Origin: Mycolicibacterium confluentis
GTDB taxonomy: Bacteria; Actinomycetota; Actinomycetes; Mycobacteriales; Mycobacteriaceae
Assembly: GCF_010729895.1 (NCBI RefSeq)
Contig: NZ_AP022612.1
Span: 2,852,001-2,916,000 of the forward strand
DNA: 64,000 bases
Direction of reading: 5' to 3'
Shown in pieces: positions 6,010 through 29,790 of the stretch. How positions within the stretch are numbered: position 1 is the first letter of the stretch; every line of letters starts with the position of its first letter. Under the pieces are notes generated by a model that saw nothing but the letters and a program-made list of their open reading frames with translations, had not been told where the DNA came from and ran no database searches. Made by a program: the position numbers and the translations under genes.

Positions 6010-7350
6010 GTGACCGACCTGGAACAGAGCCGCCTGCTCAAGACCGAGATCCCCGGCCCGCGATCGATCGAACTCGGCAGACGAAAGACGGCCGCGGTGT
6101 CGCACGGCATCGGCACGACGATGCCCGTGTACTGCACGCGGGCCGCGGGCGGAATCATCGAGGACGTCGACGGCAACCGCCTGATCGACCTCGGCTCGGG
6201 CATCGCGGTCACCACGATCGGCAGTTCGTCGCCGCGCGTCGTCGACGCGGTGCGAGACCAGGTCGGCGACTTCACCCACACGTGCTTCATGGTCACGCCG
6301 TACGAGGAGTACGTCGCGGTCGCCGAGCACCTCAACCGGCTGACCCCGGGGTCGGGCGAGAAGCGTTCGGTGCTGTTCAACTCCGGCGCCGAGGCCGTGG
6401 AGAACGCCATCAAGATCGCGCGGTCCTACACCGGCAAGCAGGCCGTCGTCGCGTTCGACCACGCCTACCACGGCCGCACCAACCTGACCATGGCGCTGAC
6501 GGCCAAGTCCATGCCCTACAAGAGCGGGTTCGGGCCGTTCGCGCCCGAGGTCTACCGCGCTCCCCTGTCCTACCCCTACCGCGACGGTCTGGTGGACAAG
6601 GAGATGGGCACCAACGGCGAACTGGCCGCCGAGCGCGCGCTGAGCGTCATCGACAAACAGATCGGCGCGGCCAACCTGGCCGCGATCATCATCGAGCCCA
6701 TCCAGGGCGAGGGCGGCTTCATCGTCCCCGCGCCGGGCTTCCTGCCCGAACTGCTGCGATGGTGCCGCGACAACAACGTGGTGTTCATCGCCGACGAGGT
6801 GCAGACCGGCTTCGCCCGCACGGGCGCAATGTTCGCGTGTGAACACGAGGGCATCGAGCCCGACCTCATCGTGACGGCCAAGGGCATCGCCGGGGGCCTG
6901 CCCCTGTCGGCGGTGACCGGTCGCGCCGAGATCGTCGACGCGCCTCATGTTTCAGGTCTGGGCGGCACCTACGGCGGCAACCCGATCGCCTGCGCGGCGG
7001 CGCTGGCCACCATCGAGACGATCGAACTCGGCGGACTCGTCGAGCGCGCACAGCAGATCGAGAAATTGATGAAGGACCGCCTCGGCCGCCTGCAGGCCGA
7101 CGACGACCGCATCGGTGACGTCCGTGGCCGCGGCGCCATGATCGCCGTCGAACTGGTCAAGTCAGGCACCGCCGAACCCGACGCGGATCTGACGAAGCGG
7201 CTCACGGCCGCGGCGCATGCGGCGGGGGTCGTCGTCCTGACCTGCGGCACCTACGGCAACGTCCTGCGGTTCCTGCCGCCGCTGGCGATCAGCGACGACC
7301 TGCTCACCGAAGGCCTCGACGTGCTGGCGCAGGCCCTTTCCGACCTGTAG
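6010..7350 (+). CDS. gabT: 4-aminobutyrate aminotransferase
   Basis: PLP-dependent class III aminotransferase that transfers the amino group of GABA to 2-oxoglutarate, giving succinate semialdehyde and glutamate. The 446-aa product contains FNSGAEAVENAIKIAR, the IADEVQTGFARTG aspartate motif and TAKGIAGGLPLSA with the PLP lysine. The GTG at 6010 is chosen because its product begins TDLEQSRLLKTEIPGP, in line with the M. tuberculosis protein; the ATG at 5863 would add 49 unrelated residues. A succinate-semialdehyde-dehydrogenase-like gene lies far downstream at 61080 and could complete the GABA shunt. Confidence 0.94.
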   Translation: MTDLEQSRLLKTEIPGPRSIELGRRKTAAVSHGIGTTMPVYCTRAAGGIIEDVDGNRLIDLGSGIAVTTIGSSSPRVVDAVRDQVGDFTHTCFMVTPYEEYVAVAEHLNRLTPGSGEKRSVLFNSGAEAVENAIKIARSYTGKQAVVAFDHAYHGRTNLTMALTAKSMPYKSGFGPFAPEVYRAPLSYPYRDGLVDKEMGTNGELAAERALSVIDKQIGAANLAAIIIEPIQGEGGFIVPAPGFLPELLRWCRDNNVVFIADEVQTGFARTGAMFACEHEGIEPDLIVTAKGIAGGLPLSAVTGRAEIVDAPHVSGLGGTYGGNPIACAAALATIETIELGGLVERAQQIEKLMKDRLGRLQADDDRIGDVRGRGAMIAVELVKSGTAEPDADLTKRLTAAAHAAGVVVLTCGTYGNVLRFLPPLAISDDLLTEGLDVLAQALSDL

Positions 7351-7385
7351 CGCCCGATAGGCCGACCTCGCGAGCCGCTCGAGGG

Positions 7386-9221
7386 TCAGTAGAGGCCGTC
7401 GAGGGTGTCCGTGAAGTTCTGCAGGACGATCTTGCGCCGTATCTTCATGCTCGGCGTCAAATCGCCTGCCTCGACGGACAGTTCGCGTTCGATGATGGCG
7501 AACCTCTTGATCTGTTCCCAGCGGTTGAGGTCCTTGTTGAGAGTGTCGATGTAGCCGCCGATCAATTCCCGGGTCTTCTCATCGCGTGCGATCTCGCCAA
7601 AGGACTTGTCGCCCAAGCCGTTCTTGTCGGCCCATTCGGTGATGGCCTCGGCGTCGAGGCCGACCAGCGCCGTGCAGTAGGGCTTGCCCTCGCCGTACAC
7701 GATGAACTCCGTGGCGTACGGACAGATGCCGGTGAACGTCGCCGCGATCGGGGACGGCGCGACGTACTTGCCCTGCGAGGTCTTGAACATGTCCTTCTTG
7801 CGGTCGGTGATCCGCAGGAAGCCGTCGGCGTCGACCTCACCGATGTCTCCGGTGTGAAACCAGCCGTCCGGTTCGAGGGCCTCGGCGGTGGCGTCGGGCA
7901 GGTCGTGATAGCCGGTCATCACACCGGGACTCCTGAGCAGGATCTCACCGTCGTCGGCGATCTCGACCTCGGTGCCGGGGAACGCCCAGCCGACCGTGCC
8001 GAACCGATAGGCGTAGGGCCTGTTGATGAACGATGCCGCCGAGGTCTCGGTCAGTCCATAGCCCTCGAGCACGAGGATTCCCACGGCGTCGAACCACTGG
8101 GCGACGTCGCGGTTCAGGGCCGCGGCCGCGGAGACGAAGAACCGCAGGCGGCCGCCGAACCGCTCCCGGATTGTGGAGAACACCAGCCGATCAGCGACGT
8201 TGTACTGGAGTGACGTTGCCAGCGACGGCCTCTCTCCGGCCTGCTTGGCCCGGGACACGTTTAGGCCCACCCCGATCGCCCAGTCGAAGATCCGCTTCTT
8301 GAGTCCGCCCTCCTCGGCGACCATGCCCTCGATCCGGGCATGTGCCTTCTCGAAGATGCGCGGGGCCGCACCCATGATGGTCGGACGCACGACGGCGAGG
8401 TTCTCGACGATTTTGTCGACGCGACCGTCGATCGCCGTCGGGAACCCGATCGCCAGGGGCAGCGCCAGCATCACCTTGCCGAAGGCATGCGCCAGCGGCA
8501 GCCACAGGAAGTTCAGGTCGTCCGGGCCGAGGATCTGCAGGGCGTCGATGGCCGCAGCCGTGTACGTCCACGCCCCGTGCGTGAGCCGCACCCCTTTCGG
8601 CCTGCCGGTGGTGCCGGAGGTGTAGATGATGCTGGCCAGGTGCTCGGGCCCGATGCTGTGGATGCGCTCGTCCACCGCATCCGGGGTCTCGGCGAGCAGT
8701 TGCCTGCCCAGCGCCTCGAGTTCGTCGAGGGTGATCACCCAGTCGCCGTCGCCCACGCCGTCGATGATCACGATCTTCTGCACGCCGGGCAGTTCGGCAC
8801 GGTGCGCGATCAGTTTGTCGACCTGGGTCTGATCCTCGGCCACCACGATGCGGCTCCCCGAATTAGCGACGATGAACGCCACGTCGGGGGCGTTGGTGGT
8901 CGGGTACACCGTGGTCGTGGCGGCACCCGCACACATGACGGCGAAGTCGACGAGGACCCACTCGTATCGGGTGGAGGAGGCCAGCGCGACCCGGTCCTCA
9001 GGAGCGATCCCCAGCGCGATCAAGCCCGCTGAGATCTGGCGGACGCGCTCATCGACCTGCTGCCAGGTGACACTCGACCAGCCACTGCCGTCGGGGTACC
9101 GGAACGCCTCGGCCCGCGGAGTGGCCGCGACGCGATCGACGAACAGTCGAGCCACCGAGGAGGCCCGGTTCTCAATCTTGGTCTTGTCCGGCGACTCGTC
9201 GGCCCGTTGCAGGTGCCCCAT
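7386..9221 (-). CDS. Long-chain fatty-acid-CoA ligase (FadD15-like)
   Basis: AMP-forming acyl-CoA synthetase of 611 aa that activates fatty acids to CoA thioesters through an acyl-adenylate. It shows the P-loop-like motif IIYTSGTTGRPKG (about 204-216), the GYGLTETSA motif, the TGDIGEVDADGFLRITDRKKD hinge and a C-terminal lid. Length and the LHG-free ACSL pattern resemble FadD15 (FAA1-type) proteins. It is convergent with gabT, 35 bp away, and is not part of the M. tuberculosis order at this point, so it is probably a fast-grower insertion. Confidence 0.9.
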   Translation of the reverse strand: MGHLQRADESPDKTKIENRASSVARLFVDRVAATPRAEAFRYPDGSGWSSVTWQQVDERVRQISAGLIALGIAPEDRVALASSTRYEWVLVDFAVMCAGAATTTVYPTTNAPDVAFIVANSGSRIVVAEDQTQVDKLIAHRAELPGVQKIVIIDGVGDGDWVITLDELEALGRQLLAETPDAVDERIHSIGPEHLASIIYTSGTTGRPKGVRLTHGAWTYTAAAIDALQILGPDDLNFLWLPLAHAFGKVMLALPLAIGFPTAIDGRVDKIVENLAVVRPTIMGAAPRIFEKAHARIEGMVAEEGGLKKRIFDWAIGVGLNVSRAKQAGERPSLATSLQYNVADRLVFSTIRERFGGRLRFFVSAAAALNRDVAQWFDAVGILVLEGYGLTETSAASFINRPYAYRFGTVGWAFPGTEVEIADDGEILLRSPGVMTGYHDLPDATAEALEPDGWFHTGDIGEVDADGFLRITDRKKDMFKTSQGKYVAPSPIAATFTGICPYATEFIVYGEGKPYCTALVGLDAEAITEWADKNGLGDKSFGEIARDEKTRELIGGYIDTLNKDLNRWEQIKRFAIIERELSVEAGDLTPSMKIRRKIVLQNFTDTLDGLY

Positions 9222-9275
9222 GGCCTGATTCTAGGAACCCGACCGCCGGTCGTATACGGAATCGCGCAGGTCAGG

Positions 9276-9944
9276 TCAGTGCGGCACTGGGTGGTGGTGC
9301 CGACGACCGAACATGCCCGAGAGCCGGCTCCGCACACCGCGGTGTTCGGGTTCCTTCTCAATGACTTCGGTGCGCTGCTCGGGCATCGGCGCTGCCAGCG
9401 GGGCCGCCTGCTCGTCAGCCTCGTCCACTGCGACGGCCTGTCGCTGGACATAGCCGACATCGCGGACGCTGCGGACCGACACGCGGCCCAGTGCCATCGC
9501 GCCCAGGAACACGATCAGCGCGCCCAGGCCCGAGAAGAACGCGAGCTCGAGCACGACGGTCTTGGCGGGCGTGGCCGCTGCGGGCACGCCCATCTCACCC
9601 ATATCGACCATCGTCGCGAAGGCACGACCGACGATGAACCAGGCGCCGGCGGCCACGGCCAGCCAGCCGCCAAGCATGGCGGTGGCCCGGTTCCGGGACA
9701 TGGCCAGCATCAGCCCGCCCAGCACGGCGACCACACCTGGCAGCACTTCCAGCCACCCGCGGGCGTCGGTCCACACCCACGGCCGATCCGGTGAGTACGC
9801 GAAATCGAAATACGGCCCCACGAATGGGATCAGTGCGCCCCACAGACCGAGCAGCACCAGCAGCAGCCCACTGGCTGCGCCGCGACTGCGCGCGATGTGG
9901 AGGCGCCCGCCCTGGGGATGCTCCGGAGTGTCATACGTACGCAT
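9276..9944 (-). CDS. Four-TM membrane protein of unknown function
   Basis: A 222-aa protein with four hydrophobic segments at about 23-45, 66-83, 91-110 and 131-153. Its cytosolic C-terminal tail is acidic and then basic, ending in a His-rich GRRHHHPVPH. I do not recognise a family with certainty. It is divergent from car; the 229 bp between them (9945-10173) presumably hold both promoters. Nothing in the context fixes a function. Confidence 0.8.
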   Translation of the reverse strand: MRTYDTPEHPQGGRLHIARSRGAASGLLLVLLGLWGALIPFVGPYFDFAYSPDRPWVWTDARGWLEVLPGVVAVLGGLMLAMSRNRATAMLGGWLAVAAGAWFIVGRAFATMVDMGEMGVPAAATPAKTVVLELAFFSGLGALIVFLGAMALGRVSVRSVRDVGYVQRQAVAVDEADEQAAPLAAPMPEQRTEVIEKEPEHRGVRSRLSGMFGRRHHHPVPH

Positions 9945-14666: not shown

Positions 14667-14928
14667 TTACAGGTATTCGCCCTTGGGTTGGACGGTGATG
14701 ATGTCGTCCTGCATCTCATTCTGCGATCGGGGTTGGTACGGGGTGTACCACCACCAGTCGCAGCGTTCCCCGGAAGTCCCGGAGTAGGGCCGCACCCGCG
14801 GCGGGGGTCCGTTCGGTTGTCGCGCCAGGGTGCCGTGACTGAGTTCGTCACCGTCGCAGTCGAGCACCCGCAGGCGGCTGGCCGGCCCCAGCACGGTGAT
14901 CTCGCCCTTATGGTGCATCCGATGGTGA
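14667..14928 (-). pseudogene. 13E12-family HNH protein, displaced C-terminal fragment
   Basis: Minus-strand reading FHHRMHHKGEITVLGP, then SGERCDWWWYTPYQP, ending at 14667. This is the C-terminal end typical of 13E12/DUF222-HNH proteins: the last HNH histidines followed by a Trp-rich tail. It has no start of its own. Its partner is the N-terminal part at 24519-25577. Joining the two at the shared GTGA (14925-14928 and 24519-24522) restores LCPYHHRMHHKGEI in one frame. The gene was therefore split by insertion of the intervening element. Confidence 0.88.
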
Positions 14929-14954
14929 AAACGACTCGGTGAAGAACACTTAAG
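14925..14954. other. Attachment site, cargo end
   Basis: Core GTGA at 14925-14928, three spacer bases, then a 23-bp arm at 14932-14954. The arm is the inverted counterpart, 20 of 23 positions identical, of the arm at 24493-24515. Left of the core is 13E12 coding sequence; right of it is element DNA. Confidence 0.82.
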
Positions 14955-14988
14955 CGAGGCGGCCTGTGGTGACTCGAATACCATTGAA

Positions 14989-15010
14989 TACTCACTGAGT
15001 ACTAAGTAGT
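14989..15010. promoter_or_regulatory. Palindromes upstream of the HTH gene
   Basis: TACTCA-C-TGAGTA (14989-15001) is directly followed by ACTA-AG-TAGT (15001-15010), ending 9 bp before the HTH start codon. The stretch is AT-rich compared with its surroundings. The likely role is an autoregulatory operator for the HTH protein; this is inference. Confidence 0.5.
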
Positions 15011-15019
15011 CTTTGATGC

Positions 15020-15787
15020 ATGAATGAGCGACGGCAACGGCGCGAAGCTATGGACTTTAGCCAAGCGACCGCCGCCGCACGCGCAGGAGTGAGCCTCGCG
15101 ACCTGGCGGCGGTGGGAAGAGGACCCCGAAGCGGTGAGCGCAAGCACGCGCATCAAGTGCGGAGGTGTGCTCGATGCGGAGCGGGCTATTCACGAACGGC
15201 GTGTGGCACTACGAGCTGAACACGAGAAGGTTGAACGGCAGTGGAATGACCACCCCCTCCTTACGCCACGTCAGGCGTTGGCGATTCGAACCCAGCTCGA
15301 CATGTGGCAAGACCTGTTCCTCGGCCCCTGGCTGGAGTCCAGCGGGGCTAGTGGGCCGCTGTACACCGTCAGCCCTTTCGACAGCCTTGATCCGCGTGTC
15401 ATGGTCTACGTCAACGACAACAAGGCATGGGCCTACCTCGCGCGTCAGCGGTGCATCGCCGTACGCGATGAAATGGGCTGCGGCTTGCTGCCTTTCGATC
15501 GCGCCGGGTGCTTTTTCGATGAAGTGCTGATGGCGCTCGTTATCGACTGGCTGGAAGAAACCTACGACGATGACGTCGCCGAAGGCGCGTTTAACGGCCT
15601 CCCGTCGCATCGGAATGACGGTCATTGGAACGCCGTCTCAGACGCCTTCGATAATGCCGCTCGCTGGGCAGAATGGGACGTTCCTGCCATCATCGGTCAC
15701 CCACTACTGCCGGCCATGCTGGCTGAGCGTCACCCATTCACTTGGTTCGACGCGCCGCCGTTGCCGCCGTCCTCGGGCCGCAACTGA
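15020..15787 (+). CDS. HTH-domain protein of the element's cargo module
   Basis: A 255-aa protein. Residues about 12-45 (DFSQATAAARAGVSLATWRRWEED) read as an XRE-like helix-turn-helix. The remaining 200 residues are acidic and Trp-rich and belong to no family I recognise. The start could be the ATG at 15020 or at 15050, just ahead of the HTH. It is the first element gene after the attachment site, in the same direction as the ParA-like and DGQHR genes. It may control them or be part of the same system. Confidence 0.7.
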   Translation: MNERRQRREAMDFSQATAAARAGVSLATWRRWEEDPEAVSASTRIKCGGVLDAERAIHERRVALRAEHEKVERQWNDHPLLTPRQALAIRTQLDMWQDLFLGPWLESSGASGPLYTVSPFDSLDPRVMVYVNDNKAWAYLARQRCIAVRDEMGCGLLPFDRAGCFFDEVLMALVIDWLEETYDDDVAEGAFNGLPSHRNDGHWNAVSDAFDNAARWAEWDVPAIIGHPLLPAMLAERHPFTWFDAPPLPPSSGRN

Positions 15788-16014
15788 GGACCAATCTGGT
15801 GGTGTCGACACCGATTCTCTGAAGTGCGCTTAGTCCGTATGTCATCCTCCGGGTTCGCAGCCATCGCCCGCCTTGCGGGAAGCCTCGATTGGGCGCCAGT
15901 TCCGCCGAGGCAGTACGACACGCCGAACATCGATGGACGTCATAGCGTCCCTTTCGGACGGCATGATGTACTCTGCGGACGTTCACCTGTCCACAAGTAC
16001 CGTCGGGAGATTCG
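15788..16014. other. Intergenic, promoter region of the ParA-like gene
   Basis: 227 bp without a convincing gene. It ends in GGGAGATTCG just before the ATG at 16015, a plausible ribosome binding site. The gap suggests that the ParA-like gene has its own promoter. Confidence 0.4.
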
Positions 16015-17034
16015 ATGCTCAGCTATGGGTTCTGGAACAACAAGGGCGGCACCGGGAAGACCTCGCTCTGCTTCCAGTCAATCTGTTTCTACGCTCACCA
16101 GCACCCCGAAGAGCGGATTCTCGTGATTGACGTCTGCCCGCAGGCGAACTTGTCCGAGTTGCTGCTCGGAGGTTTGGCGAATGGAGGGAGCGACCGACTG
16201 CTCGCGCGCCAGGGTGCGGTCCCGCGGGCCACCATCGGTGGGTATTTCCAGCAGCGGCTCCCTTCGCCGTACCAACCTCCAGCCATCGAGCCGCTGGACT
16301 ACATCACCACTCCGTGTGAATACAACGACGAGATCCCCGAGAACGTCGACCTGATCTGTGGGGACCCACTGCTCGAGTTGCAGGCGAACGCCATCTCGAC
16401 ACTGGCAAACAACAACATTCCAGGCACCGACTCATGGATCGCGATCATCGATTGGATCAAGGATCTGCTGCAGCCGTTGAGCGGCAAGTACGACGTTGCG
16501 TTCATCGACTGCAACCCAAGCTTTTCGATCTATACGCAGATCGCCCTCTCGACGGTCGACCGCATGGTGTTGCCGGTGATGGCCGACGACTCATCGCGCC
16601 GGGCGATCCAGAACGCCTTCTCGTTGGTGTACGGACTCAAGCTGCCGTCCGACATCTACGCGACATACGCGTTCGCGACACGTTTGCGAAATGCCAACCG
16701 CACCTTGCCGAAGGTGCACATGATCGTGAAGAACCGCCTCACCCAGTACATGGGAAAGGCGTCGGCCTACGCCGCCGTACTTCGCTCGATCGACCGCGAC
16801 ATCGAGAAGTTGATGGACAGCAATCCGGAGATCTTCACATTCGAAGCGCTGAACGACGGGATCGTCGATGTGCGCGACTTTCAGACGACCGGCGTCGTGG
16901 CGTTCGCGAAGGGCACGCCGCTCTACAGCCTTAAGACGGGCAAGCGTGACGTGATGGGCCAGCGCGTCACCGTGCACGAGGACTACAAGGCCAACTGCGT
17001 CGAGCACATGAACGACCTCGTCGGTCAGCTTTAG
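16015..17034 (+). CDS. ParA/Soj-like ATPase
   Basis: A 339-aa P-loop ATPase of the ParA/MinD group. It starts directly with the deviant Walker A NNKGGTGKTS (signature lysine 10, P-loop lysine 15), has Walker B DVAFIDCNPSF and ends VEHMNDLVGQL. The Walker A' motif reads D39-V-C-P-Q-A-N, where ParA proteins usually have DxDPQ; the second Asp is replaced by Cys41. No ParB-type partner is adjacent; the next gene is a DGQHR protein. It may act in element maintenance or as the switch of a two-protein system; both are inference. Confidence 0.85.
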   Translation: MLSYGFWNNKGGTGKTSLCFQSICFYAHQHPEERILVIDVCPQANLSELLLGGLANGGSDRLLARQGAVPRATIGGYFQQRLPSPYQPPAIEPLDYITTPCEYNDEIPENVDLICGDPLLELQANAISTLANNNIPGTDSWIAIIDWIKDLLQPLSGKYDVAFIDCNPSFSIYTQIALSTVDRMVLPVMADDSSRRAIQNAFSLVYGLKLPSDIYATYAFATRLRNANRTLPKVHMIVKNRLTQYMGKASAYAAVLRSIDRDIEKLMDSNPEIFTFEALNDGIVDVRDFQTTGVVAFAKGTPLYSLKTGKRDVMGQRVTVHEDYKANCVEHMNDLVGQL

Positions 17035-17053
17035 GCACAGGCAAGGGATAAAT

Positions 17054-17145
17054 CTTCAAATAAGATTTTATTTGACGAAGCAACACGTTGCTTGTATGGT
17101 TTGTCATTACCGCCTCCGGTTAGGAGGTTAATCCCCAACAGGAGG
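17054..17145 (+). promoter_or_regulatory. Promoter, operator-like palindrome and RBS of the DGQHR gene
   Basis: Perfect inverted repeat CAAATAA-GATT-TTATTTG (17057-17074) overlaps a -35-like TTGACG (17072-17077). Seventeen bases later comes the -10-like TATGGT (17095-17100). A second inverted repeat, GCAAC-AC-GTTGC (17080-17091), lies in the spacer. In the leader, CCTCC (17113-17117) can pair with GGAGG (17123-17127). The Shine-Dalgarno GGAGG at 17141-17145 precedes the ATG at 17150. This is one of the most AT-rich stretches in the window. Confidence 0.65.
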
Positions 17146-17149
17146 CACT

Positions 17150-18418
17150 ATGACCGCCATCACCGTCGACCCGCTTCGCCTGTCGAAGCCGCAGGACTCC
17201 AGCACGTACCTCGCCATCCGGACCCAGCAGGGCGGCCGTGACGTGTACAGCGTGCGGGTTCCGCTGCTGGACCTGCCGACGATCCTCCCGGTGCCCGATC
17301 CGAACAACGTGGACAAGGACAACCGCAAGGTCGATCGCCTCCACGCCAAGCACTTCGGGGAGTACCTCGACGCCAAGAAGGACTGGGTCGCTCCGGCGCT
17401 GCTGGCCCGCGACACCGGAGGCTGCGTCTTCGAGAAGGTGGACGAGAACGGGGCGGTTGGCTACCTGTCCGTCCCGTGGGCCATCGGCGGGATCTCAACG
17501 CTGAAGACCATCGACGGACAGCACCGCGTCCTCGGGGTGTCCCTGGAGAAGCAGCGCATCACCGACGCTGTAGCTGCGAACGATCGTGAGACGGCGCGCA
17601 AGGTCGGGCCCGAGAAGGCCGCGAAGCTCGCCGAGGAGCGCAAGTTCCTGATCGCTCAGATGGAGCGGCTCAAGCAGGAGTACGTCGGCCTGGACATCTA
17701 TGTCGAGACCGATCCGATCAAGGGTCAGCAGATGTTCGTGGACGTCGCCGACAACGCCAAGGGCATCAGCAGCGCCGTGCGCGCCCGCTTCGACAGCTAC
17801 AAGGTCGCCAACCGCACCCTGTCCGACGTCATCGACCACCCGCTGCTCAAGGGTCGGGTCGACGCCGAGCAGGACCGCATGACGCTCAAGAATCGCAACC
17901 TGATGGGGGCCAAGCACGTGGCCGACATCACCCGGGCCGTCATCGCAGGCGCGGGCGGTCGGATCAGCAAGAAGGCGGAGCAGAACCTCACCGACGGTGA
18001 GGTGATCGAGCAGGTAAAGGACTTCCTCGACGTCATCTCCACAGCCTTCGTGGGGCTGGCCGCGGTCACCGAGGACGATCCCGAGGCCGAGCTGAAGGCC
18101 GACGAGCTGTCGATGTCTCAGAAGCTGCGGCGGGGCTCACTGCTCGGCTCGGTGGGCATGCTGCGGGTCCTGGCCGGGGTGTTCCGCGAGTTGCGCGCAG
18201 GCGATGAGCCGGTTGAGCTGGATGACATCACCGAGTTCTTCAAGCGCCTGGACCGCCATATGCCCGCCCCGGTTGAGGAGACGAGCATCTGGCGCACCAC
18301 CGACGCGAACGTCGACTTCGAGCCGAACGCGAGCGCGCCGATCATGAGGACCCAGAACATCGTCCACCTGGTGGGCGTCATCTCGGGCTGGTACAAGAAG
18401 CCCCCGGCCTCCCTGTAA
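17150..18418 (+). CDS. DGQHR-domain (DndB-like) protein
   Basis: A 422-aa protein with the hallmark IDGQHRVLGV at residues 121-130. The flanking pattern fits the DGQHR/DndB superfamily: VPLLDLPTILPVPDPNNVDKDNRKVDRLHAKHFGEYL upstream in several blocks, and FVDVADNAKGIS after the motif. Family members include DndB, a regulator of DNA phosphorothioation, and ParB/sulfiredoxin-like proteins. The partners DndC, D and E and the 7-deazaguanine genes are absent here. It follows the ParA-like gene in the same direction with its own promoter, and a strong terminator follows. The function is unknown. Confidence 0.82.
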   Translation: MTAITVDPLRLSKPQDSSTYLAIRTQQGGRDVYSVRVPLLDLPTILPVPDPNNVDKDNRKVDRLHAKHFGEYLDAKKDWVAPALLARDTGGCVFEKVDENGAVGYLSVPWAIGGISTLKTIDGQHRVLGVSLEKQRITDAVAANDRETARKVGPEKAAKLAEERKFLIAQMERLKQEYVGLDIYVETDPIKGQQMFVDVADNAKGISSAVRARFDSYKVANRTLSDVIDHPLLKGRVDAEQDRMTLKNRNLMGAKHVADITRAVIAGAGGRISKKAEQNLTDGEVIEQVKDFLDVISTAFVGLAAVTEDDPEAELKADELSMSQKLRRGSLLGSVGMLRVLAGVFRELRAGDEPVELDDITEFFKRLDRHMPAPVEETSIWRTTDANVDFEPNASAPIMRTQNIVHLVGVISGWYKKPPASL

Positions 18419-18424
18419 ACCACG

Positions 18425-18464
18425 CCACGAAGGGCGTCACCCGCGCGGGTGACGCCCTTCGTGG
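18425..18464. terminator. Perfect 40-bp palindrome, bidirectional terminator
   Basis: CCACGAAGGGCGTCACCCGC and its exact reverse complement meet with no spacer, starting 6 bp after the DGQHR stop and followed by TTCTTA. It separates the plus-strand cargo from the minus-strand phage genes and could terminate transcription from both sides. Confidence 0.85.
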
Positions 18465-18678
18465 TTCTTAAGACCACCTGCGGCAGTCGTGCGGGAAAAA
18501 ATTGTGGGGAGAGAAACCTGCCTATGCCGCGAGGTGCACAAAAAGGGGTTACGGGGAGTACCCGCCCGGGGTGTTGAGCGCCCCGCGGCTGCGAGCTGGC
18601 GTCGGCCGACAACGCCGCCGCGCCGCGGGGGCGCCCTGGGCGGCGAGGCTCGTTACTCCTCGCCCGCCGGTCTGCGGA
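18465..18678. other. Gap between cargo terminator and capsid gene
   Basis: 214 bp downstream of both convergent modules. Very GC-rich repeats of GCCGCC type occur, but no credible gene. Confidence 0.4.
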
Positions 18679-19521
18679 CTACGGTGCGTCGTACAGACGC
18701 ACGATGGCCTCGGGGTGCGGGAATGCGATCCCGGCGCGCAGGGTGGCCTTGATGCCGATCTTGTCGAACTCGAAGTACCTGCTGCGGTCGACGTCGAGGC
18801 GCACATCGTCGCGCAGCACGACGAGGACCTTGGCGGCAGGGATTGCCCACACATCACCGAGTGCCACCGCGGCCGACGGGATGAGCGGGATTCCGAGCAC
18901 CTGGCGTTGAGTGGGCTGCGATGCGTCGTAGCCCAGTAGCGGCTCATTGCTGCCGGTCTGCTTCTTCACCTTGGCCAGTGTGAGCACCGTGGTCGGGTGT
19001 GCGACGAACGCGGTGACTGTGGCTCCGACGGTCTCGGCCTTGGACAGTGCCTCTGCGAAGGGGTCGGTGTTGGCGATCGTGCCGCCGGTGTCCACGGTGG
19101 ATACGCCGGTCACGGACAGCAGACCGGACGGGCCGTTGGCGACGGTGTTGCCGAAGAATGCGGAGTCGAGGCCTCGGGCGATCTTCTCGGCCAGGCCGTC
19201 GCCGACGACGGCCTGAGCCGACGGCGCGGAGTCCTCTGCAAGCTCCCGGGAGATGACTGACAGGCCGCCGACTTTGGCCGGGCGCACGACGAGTTCATCG
19301 AAATCGGCGTCGGATGCGGTGATCTCGGAGCCTTCGGCGAGCCACGCGACCCCGGCGTCGCCTTGGACTACCGGGATGCGGTACTCGTTGGAGGTCGTCG
19401 TGACCACGGTGGCGACGCGCAGTGCGACGGACTTTTCGCGGACCGGCTGGACGATCAGCGTACCGAGCTGTTCGGGGAGCAGTCCGTGAGTGCCGCCGCT
19501 GGTGGAGGTGAGTAGAGTCAT
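18679..19521 (-). CDS. Phage major capsid protein, HK97 fold
   Basis: A 280-aa protein with the HK97-like core pattern: HGLLPEQLGTLIVQPVREKSVALRVATVV near the start, VAWLAEGSEI, VISRELAEDS, GLDSAFFGN and a C-terminal IKATLRAGIAFPHPEAIVRL. The start is the ATG at 19521; the open frame upstream of it is unlike phage protein. There is no N-terminal delta/scaffold domain; a separate scaffold-like gene lies upstream. It is the last gene of the minus-strand phage module. Confidence 0.88.
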   Translation of the reverse strand: MTLLTSTSGGTHGLLPEQLGTLIVQPVREKSVALRVATVVTTTSNEYRIPVVQGDAGVAWLAEGSEITASDADFDELVVRPAKVGGLSVISRELAEDSAPSAQAVVGDGLAEKIARGLDSAFFGNTVANGPSGLLSVTGVSTVDTGGTIANTDPFAEALSKAETVGATVTAFVAHPTTVLTLAKVKKQTGSNEPLLGYDASQPTQRQVLGIPLIPSAAVALGDVWAIPAAKVLVVLRDDVRLDVDRSRYFEFDKIGIKATLRAGIAFPHPEAIVRLYDAP

Positions 19522-19699
19522 GAGAAATGTTGCCTTCCAGGCGAATTGAAACGTGATTGGTTTACGTCTGCGCGGCTTACAGCCGAATGCAGATTGCCCG
19601 CCTGGGGCGATCGGTGCGGTGGCCCGAGTACCTGACTCGCGAGGCCACCGCACCGACCAATGTACTGCCGGTGTGACTCAAACCGTCCGCCCCTTGCGG

Positions 19700-20200
19700 T
19701 CAGTCGACGCCCGCCCTTGTGTTCAGCAGCCCGGCCCACGACACGCCGGGCCGGTGGTCGGTGCCGGTCGCGCCGCTCCTGAGCCCGGCCCCGACGCTGG
19801 CGGGGTTGCGTTTGACCACAGGTTTGCGCGGCGACCAATGCGGATGCGCTGCGAGGGTCGCCTGCGCAGCCTCGACGACCTTGGCGTGAGAGAGGTTGCC
19901 GTCGTCGTCGAGGAGTGCGGACAGGTCGAGGCCGTCGCGGAATATGTCGGCGCCGTCGGCCAGGTGCTCGGCGGCCAGGCGCATGACCTCACCGCGTTGC
20001 AGGGCGGTCAGGCGGTCGTTGGTTTCGGCGAGTTGCGCCTCGGTGTCGCGCAACTGCTTGCGCCACTTTGCGGCCTCACGGCCTGCGCCGCGGTCGTCGA
20101 CGGCTTCTGCGGCGTCGACTGTTGCTGCCTCGACAGGTGTGGTCTCAGCCTCGACCGCCGCCCCCACGGCGGCCTCGGTATCAATTGCGTTCTCGCTCAT
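19700..20200 (-). CDS. Scaffold-like phage protein
   Basis: A 166-aa acidic protein with an Ala/Glu/Thr-rich N-terminus, a predicted coiled coil at about 45-75 (AAKWRKQLRDTEAQLAETND) and a basic C-terminus (SPRKPVVKRNPAS). This layout and the position one gene before the capsid are typical of capsid-assembly scaffolding proteins. The start ATG at 20200 overlaps the stop of the gene upstream by 4 bp. The assignment rests on composition and position, not on a conserved motif. Confidence 0.65.
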   Translation of the reverse strand: MSENAIDTEAAVGAAVEAETTPVEAATVDAAEAVDDRGAGREAAKWRKQLRDTEAQLAETNDRLTALQRGEVMRLAAEHLADGADIFRDGLDLSALLDDDGNLSHAKVVEAAQATLAAHPHWSPRKPVVKRNPASVGAGLRSGATGTDHRPGVSWAGLLNTRAGVD

Positions 20201-20445
20201 TGGTGTTCCCTTTCGGATTTGATGAATGGTGCGGTGATGCCGACGCATTCGCTGTGCGCCGTGACGCCGTGTTCGTTGTACTCGTAATGCGTCACGGTGA
20301 CCTGCGCGGTGCCGTCGGCCAGCAGGCGCAGGTCGTCGAGCGAATGCTCGACACGGCGGGGCACGATGTCGCGCGGTGCGCTCCGGTAGTCGTCGAACGC
20401 TGCCTGTATGGGATCGTGCGCGTCCCGGTCCTCGTCGTCGATCAT
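20197..20445 (-). CDS. Hypothetical phage protein
   Basis: An 82-aa product, MIDDEDRDAHDPIQAAF to IKSEREHQ, rich in acidic residues at the N-terminus. It is joined to the scaffold-like gene by an ATGA overlap, so the two are translated together. The ATG at 20445 is preferred over one 15 codons upstream. No family recognised. Confidence 0.6.
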   Translation of the reverse strand: MIDDEDRDAHDPIQAAFDDYRSAPRDIVPRRVEHSLDDLRLLADGTAQVTVTHYEYNEHGVTAHSECVGITAPFIKSEREHQ

Positions 20446-20536
20446 TGTGTACCTTCCTGTTTGGTGTGTGCTGAGCCTGTCGCCGCACACAGGTGGTGGG
20501 TGTGTTTCACACCGATGTATTGCTCGTCGCAGCGCG

Positions 20537-20842
20537 TCACGCCAGTTCGCCGCCGATGGGGGTGAAGTCGCGACCCATGCTCAGCACGATGTTGTTGCGC
20601 CAGTCCTCGCGGCAGACAGTGGCGAGGTAGCCGGGCACGTCGGGCGCTGGAATGAGTTCGCCTGTCGTTTTGTCGACACTGGCGAAGACCTCGCGTCGGG
20701 TGCCGGTCGCCGGGTCGTGCTGTACGAGGACGACTGGTGCCTCCGCGGCGGCCTGGCGGCCGTCGGGGTTGCGGTAGACCACGACGAAGCCTTTGACTTG
20801 CGTCACGGCGAGGGTGCTCCAGGTGGTGTTCGTGTACGTCAT
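20537..20842 (-). CDS. Hypothetical phage protein
   Basis: A 101-aa product (MTYTNTTWSTLAVTQVKGF) with a good spacing from an upstream AGGAGT ribosome binding site. The middle (GTRREVFASVDKTTGELI) suggests a small beta-rich fold. Unknown function. It lies between the primase and scaffold-like genes, where phiRv1-type elements carry small ORFs. Confidence 0.6.
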   Translation of the reverse strand: MTYTNTTWSTLAVTQVKGFVVVYRNPDGRQAAAEAPVVLVQHDPATGTRREVFASVDKTTGELIPAPDVPGYLATVCREDWRNNIVLSMGRDFTPIGGELA

Positions 20843-20987
20843 GCGTCTACTCCTTGTGCAGTTGTTGTGGTTGAGCTGCGGTTATGTTGAGGCAGTACGC
20901 ATTAGCACCCTTTAGGGGTAAATCGCTCTGTGTTGTGCTCATGTGGGGATTTACCTTTGGTACGTGCTGTGCGTACTGCCTCGCCTG

Positions 20988-22589
20988 TCACGCCTCGGTT
21001 TTCACTTCGAGGGCAATACCTGATCGCCACCGCTTGCCGTTGCTGGGCTTCCCGGCGGGGTAGCCGCGCTTGTCGAGTGCCTGCCCGAACGCCTTCTGGC
21101 TCAGCTGTTCTGCGCCGTCGGCGCTGCGCCACCGATCCCATGCGTTGAACAGATCCGTCGTGGTCGCCTTCAACACCGGGCTGCTCGTCGAGCATTCCTC
21201 GTCGATGAAGCGTGCCACCGCGTCGCTGTCCCGCTGATAGTCGCCCGTCGCGGCGAGCACCTGCGGTGGCTCGGCGAGCTTGTCGCCGTTGGCGCGGTAG
21301 GCATTCCATCCGGCGATGGCCCACCCGAGTACGGCGTCGGCCTCGGCCTGCAGCTTCTCGTCGAGGTGCGGGTCGCGGTCCTCGGGTGGGATCACGACGT
21401 CGAACGGGATGACGCGCAGCCGCCGCCATACCGCTGGGTCGTCACCTGACACCTTGGGCAGGTGGTTGGTGACCAGGAACGCGGTGTGCGATGGCGTGAA
21501 CTCCACTAGGTCACGGTGCACATACCGGGCCTTGATGGTGTCGCCACCAGTGAGCCGCTTCATCGTCGCCTCGGCGAGCCGCCGCCCCTCGTCGCTTTCG
21601 GACACGACGATGAACCGCCGCCCTCGTAGGTCCATCTGCCCGGTGGGGTGTGCGCCCTCGCGGGCCATGAACAGATCGGGGTCGGCTGGCGCGGCGTAGT
21701 CGCCGAGGGTGAACAGCATCGCCCCGTACCAGGTGCCCTTGCCGTTGGCGCCGGTGCCGGTGAGGATCGGCAGAATGTGCTCGGCGACCTTGCCGAGCAG
21801 CGACAGCCCGGCGACCCGCTGCAGATACGCCCGTACTTGCTCGTCGGGCTGCACCTGGTCGATGAACCGCGCCCATGCGGTGGCGTGCGCTGCCTTGTCC
21901 CATGCGCCGTGGGTCACCTTGGTGATGCAGTCCCGTGGGTCGTGGTCGCGCAACTCCATCGTGCGCAGGTCTAGTGTGCCGTTGGCGACGTTGAGTAGGT
22001 ACGGGTCGGCGTCGAGATCACCGACCGTGCACGCGAACCCGTCCAGTGCGGCCGCGACGCGCAGCACCCCTTCGATGCCGTTGGCGGTCTCGCACTTGGC
22101 GACGTCCTTGCGCAAGTTCTGGTCAACGATCGACTCGGCCAGAGCTACGGCCATCACGTCGAGTACGGCACGCTTGGCGAACCCGCCGTCATCGGGTGCC
22201 CACCTCTTGCTGTCCCAGTACAGCCACCCCAGGCCGTGCAGGTAGAGCAGTCGGCCGACGTACGCCGTTTGCAGTCGGTAGGCGATCCGCACTTGGCCGC
22301 TGTGTTCCTCGGTGCCTTGCCGCCGCGGTGGCGGGTCGACCTGTTGAACACCGCGGAATCCGATCAACTGCAGGATGGCCACCGATTGGCAGCCGTTGCG
22401 GCACTGCAGTTCTAGGTTGCCCATGCGGGACTGGACGCGCAGTGACATGTCTGCCGGGTTGTGCGCTGAGCAGTTCGGGCATTGCACGTCGTGCCACCGC
22501 GCGCCCGGCTTCTCGACGATCGGCACGCCCCACCGCTTGAGAGCGTCGATGCCGTCTCGATAGCAGATGCCCTTGACACCAACGGTCAT
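20988..22589 (-). CDS. D5/P4-type primase-helicase
   Basis: A 533-aa replication protein. The N-terminus has a zinc-binding pattern (C37PNC40, C63RNGC67). The C-terminal half is a superfamily 3 helicase: Walker A GTGANGKGT at 278-286, then FIVVSESDEGRRLAEATMKRLTGGD in pieces and the sensor FLVTNHLPKV. This matches phage/plasmid D5_N-type primases such as that of phiRv1. It would replicate the excised element. The start overlaps the stop of the small ORF upstream by 4 bp. Confidence 0.9.
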   Translation of the reverse strand: MTVGVKGICYRDGIDALKRWGVPIVEKPGARWHDVQCPNCSAHNPADMSLRVQSRMGNLELQCRNGCQSVAILQLIGFRGVQQVDPPPRRQGTEEHSGQVRIAYRLQTAYVGRLLYLHGLGWLYWDSKRWAPDDGGFAKRAVLDVMAVALAESIVDQNLRKDVAKCETANGIEGVLRVAAALDGFACTVGDLDADPYLLNVANGTLDLRTMELRDHDPRDCITKVTHGAWDKAAHATAWARFIDQVQPDEQVRAYLQRVAGLSLLGKVAEHILPILTGTGANGKGTWYGAMLFTLGDYAAPADPDLFMAREGAHPTGQMDLRGRRFIVVSESDEGRRLAEATMKRLTGGDTIKARYVHRDLVEFTPSHTAFLVTNHLPKVSGDDPAVWRRLRVIPFDVVIPPEDRDPHLDEKLQAEADAVLGWAIAGWNAYRANGDKLAEPPQVLAATGDYQRDSDAVARFIDEECSTSSPVLKATTTDLFNAWDRWRSADGAEQLSQKAFGQALDKRGYPAGKPSNGKRWRSGIALEVKTEA

Positions 22590-22759
22590 GCGGCGACCAC
22601 CTTGCTCTGGGGCTGGCCGGTGCGGCGCGCTGGGCGCAGTAGCTCGGCCAACTGTGCTCGCTGCTGATCGGTGAGCGGCGGGGCTGCCGCGACCACCCGG
22701 TCGACATACTCGTCGAGCGCAACAGCTTTGGCGCGCATTGTGGGTTGAATGCGGGTCAT
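22586..22759 (-). CDS. Small hypothetical phage protein
   Basis: A 57-aa product read as MTRIQPTMRAKAVALDEYVDR in two steps and ending RTGQPQSKVVAA. Both ends are fixed by 4-bp ATGA overlaps: its start with the excisionase-like stop and its stop with the primase start. An internal ATG at 22738 is also in frame. The Arg/Gln-rich helix DQQRAQLAELLRPA is common in small phage proteins next to primases. Function unknown. Confidence 0.65.
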   Translation of the reverse strand: MTRIQPTMRAKAVALDEYVDRVVAAAPPLTDQQRAQLAELLRPARRTGQPQSKVVAA

Positions 22760-22932
22760 TTGGCGACCGTGGTGAGGAGATCGTTGACGTCAGCGACGCT
22801 GACGCGCAGCAAGCGGGGGCCGATGCGGTAGCCGGTGATGGTGCCCTCGGCGATCCAGCGGCGCACAGTGCGGGGGTGGACCCCGGCCCGGTGGGCTACC
22901 TCGGCGGTCGAGACAGTCTGTTCAGGCGTCAT
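22756..22932 (-). CDS. Excisionase-like MerR/HTH_17 protein
   Basis: A 58-aa protein containing STAEVAHRAGVHPRTVRRWI followed by GTITGYRIGPRLLRVSVAD, the winged-HTH pattern of excisionase (Xis/RDF) and helix_turn_helix_17 proteins. It sits just downstream of the integrase, as the recombination directionality factor does in phiRv1. Its start ATG at 22932 follows a GGAGC ribosome binding site. It probably controls the direction of integrase action. Confidence 0.8.
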   Translation of the reverse strand: MTPEQTVSTAEVAHRAGVHPRTVRRWIAEGTITGYRIGPRLLRVSVADVNDLLTTVAK

Positions 22933-23044
22933 AGGACGCTCCGTTCGTATTCTGTTGTCAGATTCAGTTGTGAGTACGTCCCGTAAGTTACATCCCGTCC
23001 GGCTCAGCCCGACCGCCCTGCGACGCGAATGAACCCAACGCCAT

Positions 23045-23077
23045 CTGTTGTTGACACCTCAACAGTTACAACAGGTT
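23045..23077. promoter_or_regulatory. Nested inverted repeats between integrase and excisionase genes
   Basis: TGTTGA-CACC-TCAACA (23049-23064) lies inside a wider pair CTGTTGT … ACAACAG (23045-23077). Located in the 160-bp gap (22933-23092) upstream of the excisionase-primase operon, it is a good candidate operator for lysogenic control of the phage genes. The rest of the gap shows no gene. Confidence 0.5.
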
Positions 23078-23092
23078 TCGCTGCCGTGGCGG

Positions 23093-24490
23093 CTAGCGCC
23101 AGTTCACGGCCACCCGCTCGGGGTGGAATACGTGACCGCCTTTCCCGACGGGCGCGACGACGAACTCGACCAGGACGTCGATCACGGCACGCAGCCGATC
23201 CGGCGACAGCTCTGTGATCGCCTCGACGACCTCGGGCTTGCCGAGCGGCAGACCGTCGAAGACTCGCAGCCGCTCCGTGTCCTGTTGGCGCCGCTCGATT
23301 GCTTCGAGCTTGTCGGTGATCCGTGCCGTCGCACGCTGCGCCTGCTGTCCGGTGAGCAGCCCGTCGGCCCGTTCGTCGGCGATCTCGTCGAGGCGAACCA
23401 GCAGGGCCAGCCGCTCGACGCGCAGCGCCTCAGCTTCGGCAGCGTCGTGCACCTCGGCTTTCAGCAGGTCGACGGCATCGGCCCGAGCGAGACGCCCGGC
23501 GACCACCTTGTAGATCAGCGGCTCGACATGCTCAGCGCGGACACTGCATCTGCGGCATGTCTTGCAGGCGTATGTGATTGAGTGCGACCGTGGCGCATCC
23601 TTGTGGGCCTGCATGACCCACTGACCGGACAGGTAGCCACCGCAACCAGGTTTGCCGCACTGCAGCACGCCGGTCAGCAGATGCTTGCGTACCGATTTAC
23701 GCCCCGGCGCGCGACCCGGCGCGTTGAGCACCGCCTGAGCCGATCGCCAGGTCTGCTCGTCGACCAGGCCCGGCCAGGTGCCCTTGCCGACAATCTCGCC
23801 GCGGTGATCGCGCAGCCCGGCATTGCGCGGCGCGCGCAGAAACAGCGAGACAGTCGAGGCGCTCCACGGCCTGCCGTTGAGCCCATGCACCCCGGTCCCA
23901 TTCCACGCGCGGGCTATGTCGCTGATCGACCCGCCAGCCAGCACCGCGGCGTACGCCTCACGGACCAGCGGCGCGGTGGCCGGGTCAGGTTGGTGCGTGT
24001 CGTCGAGGTAGCCGAACGCCCGGCGCCATTGCGGTCGGCCCGCCTCGGCTTTCTGCTGGGCGGCACGTAGCTGCCGGGCGCGCTTGTGCTCGATCTCATG
24101 CGCGGCCACGCTGCCTTTCAGCCGTGCCATCAGGCGCCCTTGAGCGGTGGCTAGGTCAATGTCGCCCGATACGGTTGCCAACGCCAGTCGCTTGTCGTCG
24201 GCCAACGCCATGAACGCCTCAAGCTCGATCGGACGTCGGTGCAGCCGGTCCAAGTCCCAGGCGACGACGGCACCGATCCGGCCCTCGCGCACATCGTCGA
24301 GCATCCGCTCATATGCGGGCCGCTTCTTACCCGAAGACGCACTCACGTCATTGTCGACAAACTCGACCGGCGTCCACCCACGGTCGGCGCACAGCTTGAG
24401 GCAGTCCTGGCGTTGGCGGGTCACCCCTAGCTGCTGGCCGGTCGGATCGGAGGATATACGCAGGTAAACGGCTGCTTGGGGGGCGTCCAT
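23093..24490 (-). CDS. Large serine integrase
   Basis: A 465-aa site-specific serine recombinase. The N-terminal resolvase domain has Y9-L-R-I-S13-S-D with S13 as the likely nucleophile, then WDLDRLHRRP and the helix-E region SVAAHEIEHKRAR. The recombinase domain follows, then a zinc ribbon (LQCGKPGC … YACKTCRRC) and a coiled-coil motif rich in Leu/Arg/Glu (about 345-420). Length and layout match phiRv1-type integrases. The start lies 3 bp inside the attachment arm at 24493, as expected for an integrase gene next to attP. Confidence 0.94.
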   Translation of the reverse strand: MDAPQAAVYLRISSDPTGQQLGVTRQRQDCLKLCADRGWTPVEFVDNDVSASSGKKRPAYERMLDDVREGRIGAVVAWDLDRLHRRPIELEAFMALADDKRLALATVSGDIDLATAQGRLMARLKGSVAAHEIEHKRARQLRAAQQKAEAGRPQWRRAFGYLDDTHQPDPATAPLVREAYAAVLAGGSISDIARAWNGTGVHGLNGRPWSASTVSLFLRAPRNAGLRDHRGEIVGKGTWPGLVDEQTWRSAQAVLNAPGRAPGRKSVRKHLLTGVLQCGKPGCGGYLSGQWVMQAHKDAPRSHSITYACKTCRRCSVRAEHVEPLIYKVVAGRLARADAVDLLKAEVHDAAEAEALRVERLALLVRLDEIADERADGLLTGQQAQRATARITDKLEAIERRQQDTERLRVFDGLPLGKPEVVEAITELSPDRLRAVIDVLVEFVVAPVGKGGHVFHPERVAVNWR

Positions 24491-24492
24491 CC

Positions 24493-24522
24493 CTTAAATG
24501 TACTTCACCAAGTCGATTGTGA
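24493..24522. other. Attachment site, integrase end
   Basis: A 23-bp arm (24493-24515), three spacer bases and core GTGA (24519-24522). Right of the core, 13E12 coding sequence continues on the minus strand. Joining both arms gives an attP of about 56 bp with near-perfect dyad symmetry centred on the dinucleotide CA. Confidence 0.82.
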
Positions 24523-25577
24523 TACGGGCACAACAGCACCAGATTCTCCAGCTCGGTCTCCCCGCCGTCCTCCCAATGCCGGATGTGATGCGCATGCAGA
24601 CCCCGCGTGGCCCCACACCCCGGCACAGCGCAGGTGGGGTGCCGATGCTCCAGGGCGCGGCGCAACCGCCGGCTGATCGTGCGCGTGGTGCGCCCAGACC
24701 CGATGACCTGACCGTCACGTTCGAACCACACCTCACAGGTGGCATCACAGGCCAGGTACCGGCGGTCGGCGGCAGACAGAGCCGGCCCCAGATGCAGATT
24801 GGCCAGCTTCTCCTCGACATCGACGTGCAGCACCACCGTGGTGCGATGCCCCTGCGGGCGCGCGGCGGCCTCGGCATCCCAACCGGCCTCCACCAACCGC
24901 ATGAAACCGTCTGACAACGTCGGAAACGGTGGACGACGCAACTCATCACGATTGTGCCCGGTATCGGATTCATCAGCGTCGTGATCACGCTTCCACTCAC
25001 CGATCAACGCCTCATGGTGCGACTGCAGTCCGGCCTCGAACTTCGCCGACTCGATCGCAGGCAAGGTGATGCGCCACGTGACGGTGTCCTCACCCACCGA
25101 CTTGCTGATCGACGCTTGCGGTTCCGGCCGCGGCGCAGGTTCTGGCCGCGGCTCCAACTTGATCGCCTTCTTCAACTGGCTGACCGAGGCATGGGTCGCG
25201 AACTGCGCATAGTGCTCATCGGAGCCCTCGCCGGCGCGGCGGGCGATCACCCCCACCTGATCCAGCGACAACTGCCCCTCCCGCAGTGCACCCACACAGC
25301 GGGGGAACTCCTCAATCCGCTCGGCGATCGCGGCGATGGACTTCGAGTGCTCCGACGAGGCGCCCAACCGCCAGGCCAGCAGTGCCGCCAACGACCGACA
25401 GCCCGTATGACCCCACAGCCCGTCCATCCGCGCGGCGATCTCCACGATCCGGCCGTCAATCGCGTTGCGCTGCCCCGCCAACTCCGCCAACTCCTCGAAC
25501 AACACCCCCAGTCGGTCACCGATCGGCAGCTCAACCGCCTCGCCGGGGAACGCCGTGATCGACATGACCCCAGTCAA
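24519..25577 (-). pseudogene. 13E12-family DUF222/HNH protein, N-terminal part
   Basis: About 353 residues of a 13E12-repeat protein. The DUF222 domain starts near residue 20 (LFEELAELAGQRNAIDGRIVEIAARM). The HNH region near the break reads GLHAHHIRHWEDGG then LENLVLLCPYH. At the attachment core the frame runs into element DNA (RLGEVHLRDG) and stops at 24348, inside the integrase gene. The missing C-terminus is at 14667-14928. ATG at 25577 or 25565 may be the start. A chimeric 409-aa product is still possible, but it lacks the last HNH histidines. Confidence 0.9.
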
Positions 25578-27653: not shown

Positions 27654-27830
27654 TTCGGTTACCACGCGTCGAGCACGCCCTGAAGCAGTGCGCAGCGCTC
27701 GTGCCACCCGTGGACGGTCGATCCACTTGGTCGTACGGACGAACATCGGCGTGGCGTGTTCCCACTGACTGAGTCCAACCAGTTTTAGAGTCCTGTAGCC
27801 CGATGTAGGGCGAGAAGGGACGATGAACGT

Positions 27831-28112
27831 ATGGCTGGTCGGAAGCGGAATTCCGCGGAGGACATCGTGCGCAAGTTGCGCCGCGCCGATGAGTTGGCTG
27901 CCGAAGGCAAGACCGGCGAGCAGATCGCCGCGGAGCTGGAGGTGTCGCCGGCGACGTTGTACAACTGGCGCCGCTCCTACGGTGGCATGGACACTGACGC
28001 CGCCAAAGAGCTCAAGGAGTTGCGTGAGCAGAACGCGCGCCTCAAGCGCCTGCTCGCCGAGGCCGAGCTGGTCAAGGACGCTTTGCGGGAGGTCGCGAAG
28101 GGAAAATTCTGA
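27831..28112 (+). CDS. IS3-family transposase OrfA (copy 1)
   Basis: A 93-aa HTH protein identical to OrfA of the inverted copy. It has the IS3/IS911 layout: SAEDIVRKLRRADELAAEGK HTH region, SPATLYNWRRSYGGMD, then a leucine-zipper-like helix ELREQNARLKRLLAEAEL. ATG at 27831. Intact, but its OrfB partner is broken. Confidence 0.9.
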   Translation: MAGRKRNSAEDIVRKLRRADELAAEGKTGEQIAAELEVSPATLYNWRRSYGGMDTDAAKELKELREQNARLKRLLAEAELVKDALREVAKGKF

Positions 28113-28868: not shown

Positions 28869-28927
28869 TGGCGAGTCCCCGTTTCTGAGTCCACCCGTTT
28901 CTAGAGTCGGGTTGGTGTGATCCAGAT

Positions 28928-29761: not shown

Positions 29762-29790
29762 GTCGACGGCGCGGCGCTTGGCAGCTGGGC

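Follow-up and report, generated by a model that had tools for sequence, protein, structure and literature searches.

What lies at one end of a phage-satellite-like element in Mycolicibacterium confluentis is, with high confidence, a cargo slot holding separate single-gene cassettes and not one three-gene system. The window, by which we mean the whole stretch of 64,000 nucleotides analysed (contig NZ_AP022612.1, positions 2,852,001 to 2,916,000 of the forward strand), contains this element of about 9.6 kb. Its recognised phage genes, for a capsid, a primase-helicase and an integrase, are all on the minus strand, and at one end three intact open reading frames (ORFs) on the plus strand encode a helix-turn-helix (HTH) type protein, a ParA-like ATPase and a DGQHR protein (Table 1). 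The ParA-like protein belongs to a class of solitary ATPases with the Walker A' motif D-x-C-P-Q. At least two phyla have it, as one-gene cassettes on plasmids, in prophages and on satellites. We suggest tentatively, with more doubt than conviction, that this class is an ATP-locked, self-repressed phage-exclusion switch that shares descent with HEPN-ParA dyads.

Cargo genes that do not travel together

An earlier reading made from the sequence alone (the sequence-only reading) had proposed that the three genes form a single system. Much of its description stands: the genes are three and all on the plus strand, the 40-bp palindrome behind them is perfect and gives a strong predicted hairpin (−41.8 kcal/mol, z = −8.3 versus shuffles), the element is phage-derived, with inverted arms around the phage genes and a split host gene, and the cargo position at its end holds. 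Of the palindromes it saw upstream, the one ahead of DGQHR is upheld, but the one ahead of the HTH gene (14989-15001) has just 6+6 bases and may be chance.

The system itself is not upheld by the company the genes keep elsewhere. DGQHR loci were drawn from a genome collection (29 loci), plasmids (10 records) and viral contigs (1 locus); ParA homologues were drawn from plasmids (216 records at E = 1 × 10−5), phages (7 records) and viral contigs (50 loci). In whole genomes, DGQHR is found in 1 of 100 relatives and 6 of 394 members of the class, and ParA in 2 of 297 of the genus and 4 of 394 of the class, the genome under study being in all four counts; a further 4 of 101 genomes of another genus have DGQHR, and the 20 phage records with DGQHR are all from Vibrio phages at 27-28% identity. 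The HTH protein has 106 homologues at E = 0.001. Among 40 DGQHR loci and 65 ParA loci, the window excluded, ParA and DGQHR are both present in L013 only, where they are on opposite strands 1.2 kb apart. An HTH homologue is in none of the 40 or the 65, many of which have short flanks (25 of the 29 genome-collection loci extend about 10 kb on each side), and no neighbour family recurs around the DGQHR loci.

Two related elements show the genes coming one at a time. In Mycolicibacterium sphagni (L003), a sister element has the capsid (81%), primase (79%) and integrase (84%), with DGQHR at 91% identity in the same place and neither ParA nor HTH. At L076, ParA at 85% identity is without DGQHR or HTH, and the integrase next to it is related to the window one at 34%; in that locus, capsid and slot were judged by eye. 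The neighbourhood search, which had been set beforehand as the refuting test, finds no conserved linkage of the trio outside the element. The HTH gene, regulator-like in character, is unrelated to the other two. As to an anti-phage role, the idea fails for the trio, and the single genes stay candidates. In the L003 element, a 526-amino-acid ORF (8035-9615, minus strand) takes the place of ParA and HTH, and it has no Pfam or PADLOC match.

Three further ideas were tried and set aside. A link between DGQHR, DUF262 and ParB/Srx is published (PMC4619093, in excerpt); DGQHR as the missing ParB of the ParA-like protein is nevertheless rejected, because ParA and DGQHR rarely share loci. For defence islands around DGQHR, 103 of 104 neighbours were scanned, one very long gene being left out. 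The first 25 of 96 and 80 families include single matches to Jet, a type I methylase and LmuB, along with two mad2, seven GntR and three phage integrases, and we claim no enrichment, since the scan covered near neighbours. Nor do we claim that the slot is a defence hotspot in general: of 10 capsid-adjacent genes scanned in 9 loci, some of which may fall outside the element, one has a TIR domain and the other nine are unlike defence genes or unmatched. The TIR-domain gene, with PADLOC matches, belongs to a different genome of the genus (L090, 5746-7278), where it adjoins a capsid gene.

The ParA-like ATPase and its promoter repeats

The ParA fold is present with its signature lysines, and K10, K15 and D165 are kept; in the Walker A' motif, however, the catalytic Asp of D-x-D-P-Q that is asked of a partition ParA is missing, and Cys41 stands in its place. 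The altered motif, already remarked on in the sequence-only reading, proves to be a trait of the family. Cys41 is invariant in the best 120 of 4763 database hits and in all 65 ParA loci, where identities go down to 37%, these homologues having been gathered with a Cys-bearing query. In structures, the same column is Ala in the mutants 2bek (Soj) and 8ray (ParA with ATP), and Asp in 1wcv and 3pg5. The same reading saw no ParB, and no centromere-binding partner gene is recognised adjoining ParA, though small genes may escape a simple caller.

Ahead of the gene are two putative operator sites of the form GTCCN5GGAC, 21 bp apart. The site was first noticed on the window, L076, L100 and L067. In a set of 38 test loci, a pair at 21-bp spacing is found in 12 versus 0.02 expected, and the other spacings from 15 to 27 have 0 or 1 each. 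Eight of the 38 had been viewed earlier, none with the pair (L101, L065, L068, L013, L102, L069, L071 and L070), hence the fraction among fresh loci is 12/30; some of the positive loci are related to each other (L144/L155 and L118/L134). The array is carried by ParA copies from two phyla.

Longer arrays were also seen. In a phage contig (L034), the region 6831-7496 directly ahead of a ParA-like gene holds some 650 bp of short repeats that contain GTCC and look centromere-like, and shorter repeat arrays precede ParA in L118 and L134. For the Salmonella copies, control of ParA by CI was considered and rejected: the stretch between divergent HTH genes in L066 is without GGTAAAC repeats.

Our literature search, over the portions of papers that it returned, gave no description of the Cys-type ParA family or of the 21-bp operator array, and the words ParA and DndB are absent from the main texts of PMC9519451 and PMC9122126. 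Public records name the family copies "ParA family protein" or "ParA-like partition protein". Should the catalytic Asp be absent from the whole family, and its members occupy moron positions on plasmids and in prophages, many of these labels are misleading, and phage exclusion can be tested directly on a large group of solitary ParA proteins.

Position of the ParA-like gene and a HEPN-coupled sister clade

In prophages, ParA often stands behind a repressor gene. The genes directly upstream of ParA were called as longest ORFs, and our scan took 34 of them, picked out of 47 loci so as to avoid repeats. In nine of the 34 the gene is an S24-type repressor, and phi297 gives an example of a repressor in this position. 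Plasmid copies are near MobF relaxases, and one is behind a recombinase gene. On an Acidovorax plasmid, a member of the family is found beside a separate ParA/ParG pair.

A gene of HEPN_RiboL-PSP type stands directly 3' of a Cys-type ParA in all four of the viral contigs L159-L162, whose ParA is 38-40% identical to the window protein and shares the Cys motif. Three of the four HEPN matches (PF18735) are above the Pfam cut-off and the fourth scores 28.3 against 28.4. This HEPN-coupled ParA is a two-gene form of the family. No HEPN gene is annotated beside the ParA copies of 37-38% identity (L069-L071), and none adjoins the window ParA, whose neighbours match HTH and DndB/DGQHR models. An association of HEPN (MAE_18760) with ParA/Soj has been described as a dyad, and a toxin-antitoxin role proposed for it (Anantharaman et al. 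2013, PMC3710099, in excerpt).

The DGQHR protein and its palindrome

On its curated score, the window protein is classed as a DGQHR-family member but not DndB, reaching 27.9 bits versus a cut-off of 328 for the DndB equivalog TIGR03233. The earlier remark that dnd and dpd genes are lacking is borne out nearby for dnd genes, of which there are none, and in part for the genome: dndC has no match there, by a genome-wide search made for dndC and for no other dnd or dpd gene and with a weak control (5 of 14 control genomes match, none above cut-off). Across actinobacteria, DGQHR identity is 77-95% in a main clade and 65-67% in a second. The N-terminal part is probably a ParB/sulfiredoxin fold, as published for the family (PMC4619093, in excerpt). 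In our own model, residues 1-128 are below a predicted local distance difference test score of 50 and the input alignment is too uniform; the fold search gave no Foldseek match at E = 0.001, and a search of PDB sequences at E = 0.1 gave no relative.

The palindrome core AATAAGN3TTATT has a single exact occurrence in the 5.9-Mb genome, at the DGQHR promoter. Its inner part, TAAGN3TTA, is found 89-99 bases ahead of the aligned DGQHR start in upstream DNA that is otherwise dissimilar. In a main group of 19 loci it is exact in 13 (expected 0.13) and within one mismatch in 17 (expected 2.24); over all 32 loci, 13 are exact, all of them in that group, and 19 are within one mismatch, figures to be read knowing that motif and group were picked after reading the upstream sequences and that the fragment L030 was left out. 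Four control offsets give 0 exact matches, and one offset gives 1/18 within one mismatch. Among eight later loci, L108 and L109 of the main clade have an exact TAAGN3TTA; L103 and L104, whose upstream DNA is that of L014 and L015, do not count as independent cases.

In folding predictions, the DGQHR leader base-pairs with its own ribosome-binding site. In eight leaders of the Streptomyces type, double changes preserve 2 of the 12 predicted pairs and some of the sequences disrupt several pairs, which lends weak support to a conserved pairing that would hide the site.

The element and its insertion site

The element phiRv1 uses a 13E12 repeat for its insertion, and the window element is of the phiRv1 type, a serine-integrase element lodged in a 13E12-type DUF222-HNH gene. 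Both DUF222-HNH pieces align to one unbroken relative (L081), with the break at the CPYHHR codons, and the end arms are identical in inverted orientation at 20 of 24 positions versus a maximum of 16 among 60 shuffles. The working definition of a candidate mycobacterial phage-inducible chromosomal island (PICI), as excerpted from PMC10654092, asks for an integrase together with a major capsid gene, both within a single integrated region, and phiRv1 and phiRv2 are counted there among the candidates; the window element carries both genes and therefore fits.

In the genus, capsids of the window type are common: at E = 0.001, matches occur in 87 of 198 genomes, in most cases with low identity. A 96% identical capsid is in another genome of the genus (L075, 9001-10366) with no integrase, primase or cargo match within 19 kb, and that region is probably a remnant. 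Close to the element, window 27823-30080 holds two inverted copies that share their transposase-like ORFs, IS3-type by eye, and a 351-amino-acid ORF without Pfam match (26598-27653) is near the DUF222-HNH gene.

Table 1. Features of the element, its cargo and its surroundings, in window coordinates, with the HEPN genes of the sister clade in coordinates of their own loci
Feature	Position	Strand	Basis
DUF222-HNH gene, C-terminal piece	14667..14932	-	alignment to unbroken L081 relative, from YHHRLHH on
Serine-integrase element, PICI-like, ~9.6 kb	14933..24514		end arms; capsid, primase, integrase; split host gene
Left end arm	14933..14956	+	inverted match to right arm, 20/24 identical
HTH-type protein, 255 aa	15020..15787	+	weak HTH_31/HTH_3 matches under Pfam cut-offs
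Two putative ParA operator sites	15947..15980	+	GTCCN5GGAC exact at -68, one mismatch at -47
Solitary ParA-like ATPase, 339 aa	16015..17034	+	AAA_31 4.9e-15, above Pfam cut-off; D-V-C-P-Q in Walker A'
Palindrome before DGQHR, TCAAATAAGATTTTATTTGA	17056..17075	+	AATAAGN3TTATT core; exact once in genome
DGQHR leader, predicted to pair own ribosome-binding site	17095..17155	+	z -2.9; matched by 2/200 shuffles
DGQHR protein, 422 aa	17150..18418	+	PF14072 1.7e-24; TIGR03187 75.8 bits vs cut-off 58.85
40-bp perfect hairpin, terminator-like	18425..18464	+	between convergent DGQHR and capsid genes
HK97-type major capsid protein	18679..19653	-	profile matches
D5/P4-type primase-helicase	20988..22589	-	profile matches
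Large serine integrase	23093..24490	-	profile matches
Right end arm	24491..24514	-	inverted 24-base counterpart of left arm
DUF222-HNH gene, N-terminal piece	24515..25577	-	DUF222 4.1e-44, HNH 8.3e-08; aligns with L081
HEPN gene, L159	1473-2084		
HEPN gene, L160	7035-7646		
HEPN gene, L161	4941-5570		
HEPN gene, L162	7035-7637		

Proposed mechanism and its alternatives

The explanation that we prefer, exclusion step included, is one to which we give a little short of an even chance, and its parts differ in strength. With Cys for the catalytic Asp, the ParA-fold ATPase would bind ATP and hardly hydrolyse it, and poor turnover is probable on this ground. The ATP-locked dimer would occupy its own 21-bp-spaced operators and hold expression low. 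Each of the two proteins, DGQHR and ParA, would repress its own promoter through its own upstream palindrome, which the sequences likewise make probable. DndB binds palindromes ahead of its own gene and regulates transcription (PMC4507180, in excerpt), and because of this, and because DGQHR is the sole shared gene at its loci, the palindrome near −95 most likely serves self-repression; DGQHR, being DndB-related, would act there as DndB does with other palindromes, and would have an additional role on mobile DNA. The two kinds of operator are ready targets for deciding the self-control of each protein. Infection by another phage would then upset the locked state, and the freed ParA-like protein would block the incoming phage. 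Exclusion is proposed because of the position of ParA behind repressors and the distant HEPN-coupled sister clade; it is the weakest step, and we regard it as a rather doubtful possibility.

Several observations weigh against this explanation. Exclusion is argued from position and from a distant clade, a phage phenotype is known for none of the three genes, and 25 of the 34 scanned genes upstream of ParA are not S24 repressors. No PADLOC model matches the window ParA or three relatives, and DGQHR matches DndB only. The Cys might still permit slow hydrolysis. On the operator side, 26 of the 38 ParA test loci are without the 21-bp pair, and the copies in Salmonella, Pantoea and similar viral contigs are preceded by other repeats, GGTAAAC/GTTTACC; 13 of the first 32 DGQHR loci are beyond one mismatch from TAAGN3TTA, and the palindrome is absent in L105-L107 and L110, four later loci of diverged DGQHR clades. 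What binds the predicted operators is something we infer, and the ParB/sulfiredoxin link for DGQHR comes from a paper, our own model being poor over residues 1-128.

The alternative of a partition or replicon-stabilising ATPase, its promoter repeats serving as a centromere, alone or with an unlinked partner, is possible but disfavoured, and we think it unlikely. The sequence-only reading had raised it as a stabiliser of the excised form; the catalytic Asp is missing throughout the family, prophage copies are in repressor-adjacent positions, one carrier plasmid has its own ParA/ParG pair, and no DNA-binding partner gene is recognised next to ParA. It is also improbable that the protein is what remains of a HEPN-ParA toxin-antitoxin dyad, its regulatory or antitoxin-like half, now acting on its own as a regulator or anti-toxin. 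The sister clade followed by HEPN, the Cys motif common to both and the toxin-antitoxin role proposed for the dyad (PMC3710099) speak for this, but identity is just 38-40%, solitary copies are widely spread and no HEPN gene is adjacent in the window. For DGQHR, we see little chance that it is an orphan regulator which remains from a phosphorothioation-type modification system located elsewhere, or which acts on one: membership of the DGQHR/DndB family and transcriptional regulation by DndB (PMC4507180) would suit such a role, yet dndC is not found in the genome (with the weak control), the full palindrome is exact nowhere else there and DGQHR has no recurring neighbours. One cooperating anti-phage or superinfection-control system with HTH as regulator, as adjacency, common strand, a single hairpin behind the last gene and the satellite cargo position might suggest, is largely refuted and very improbable, given the lone joint occurrence in L013 on opposite strands, HTH in no locus, L003 and L076 each with one gene and not the other, and separate putative operators for ParA and DGQHR.

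Comparison with known systems

Unlike the ParA/Soj-McdA ATPases, the window family has Cys for the catalytic Asp and no recognised partner gene, and many of its copies have the 21-bp operator array. In lambda, rexAB stands behind cI. The ParA-like gene is in a like position directly behind a repressor in several prophages; we claim no sequence relation to rexAB, and ParA has separate repeats ahead of it. With the HEPN-ParA/Soj dyad (PMC3710099), the resemblance lies in the sister clade at 38-40% identity, where a HEPN gene comes directly after ParA. Copies of the window clade stand alone, PF18735 is the model that the HEPN relatives match, and the two ATPase families may differ.

The element as a whole resembles the mycobacterial PICIs including phiRv1 (PMC10654092) in having an integrase and a capsid, and a serine integrase in a DUF222-HNH gene; it differs in its cargo, the likeness to phiRv1 being drawn from gene content and insertion site. 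From DndB of phosphorothioation, the DGQHR protein differs in falling below the equivalog score, in the absence of a dndC match from its genome (weak control), and in its palindrome, DndB's being TACGN10CGTA (PMC4507180). With the DndB/DGQHR family (TIGR03187, PF14072) it shares a domain score above the cut-off and a palindrome ahead of its own gene.

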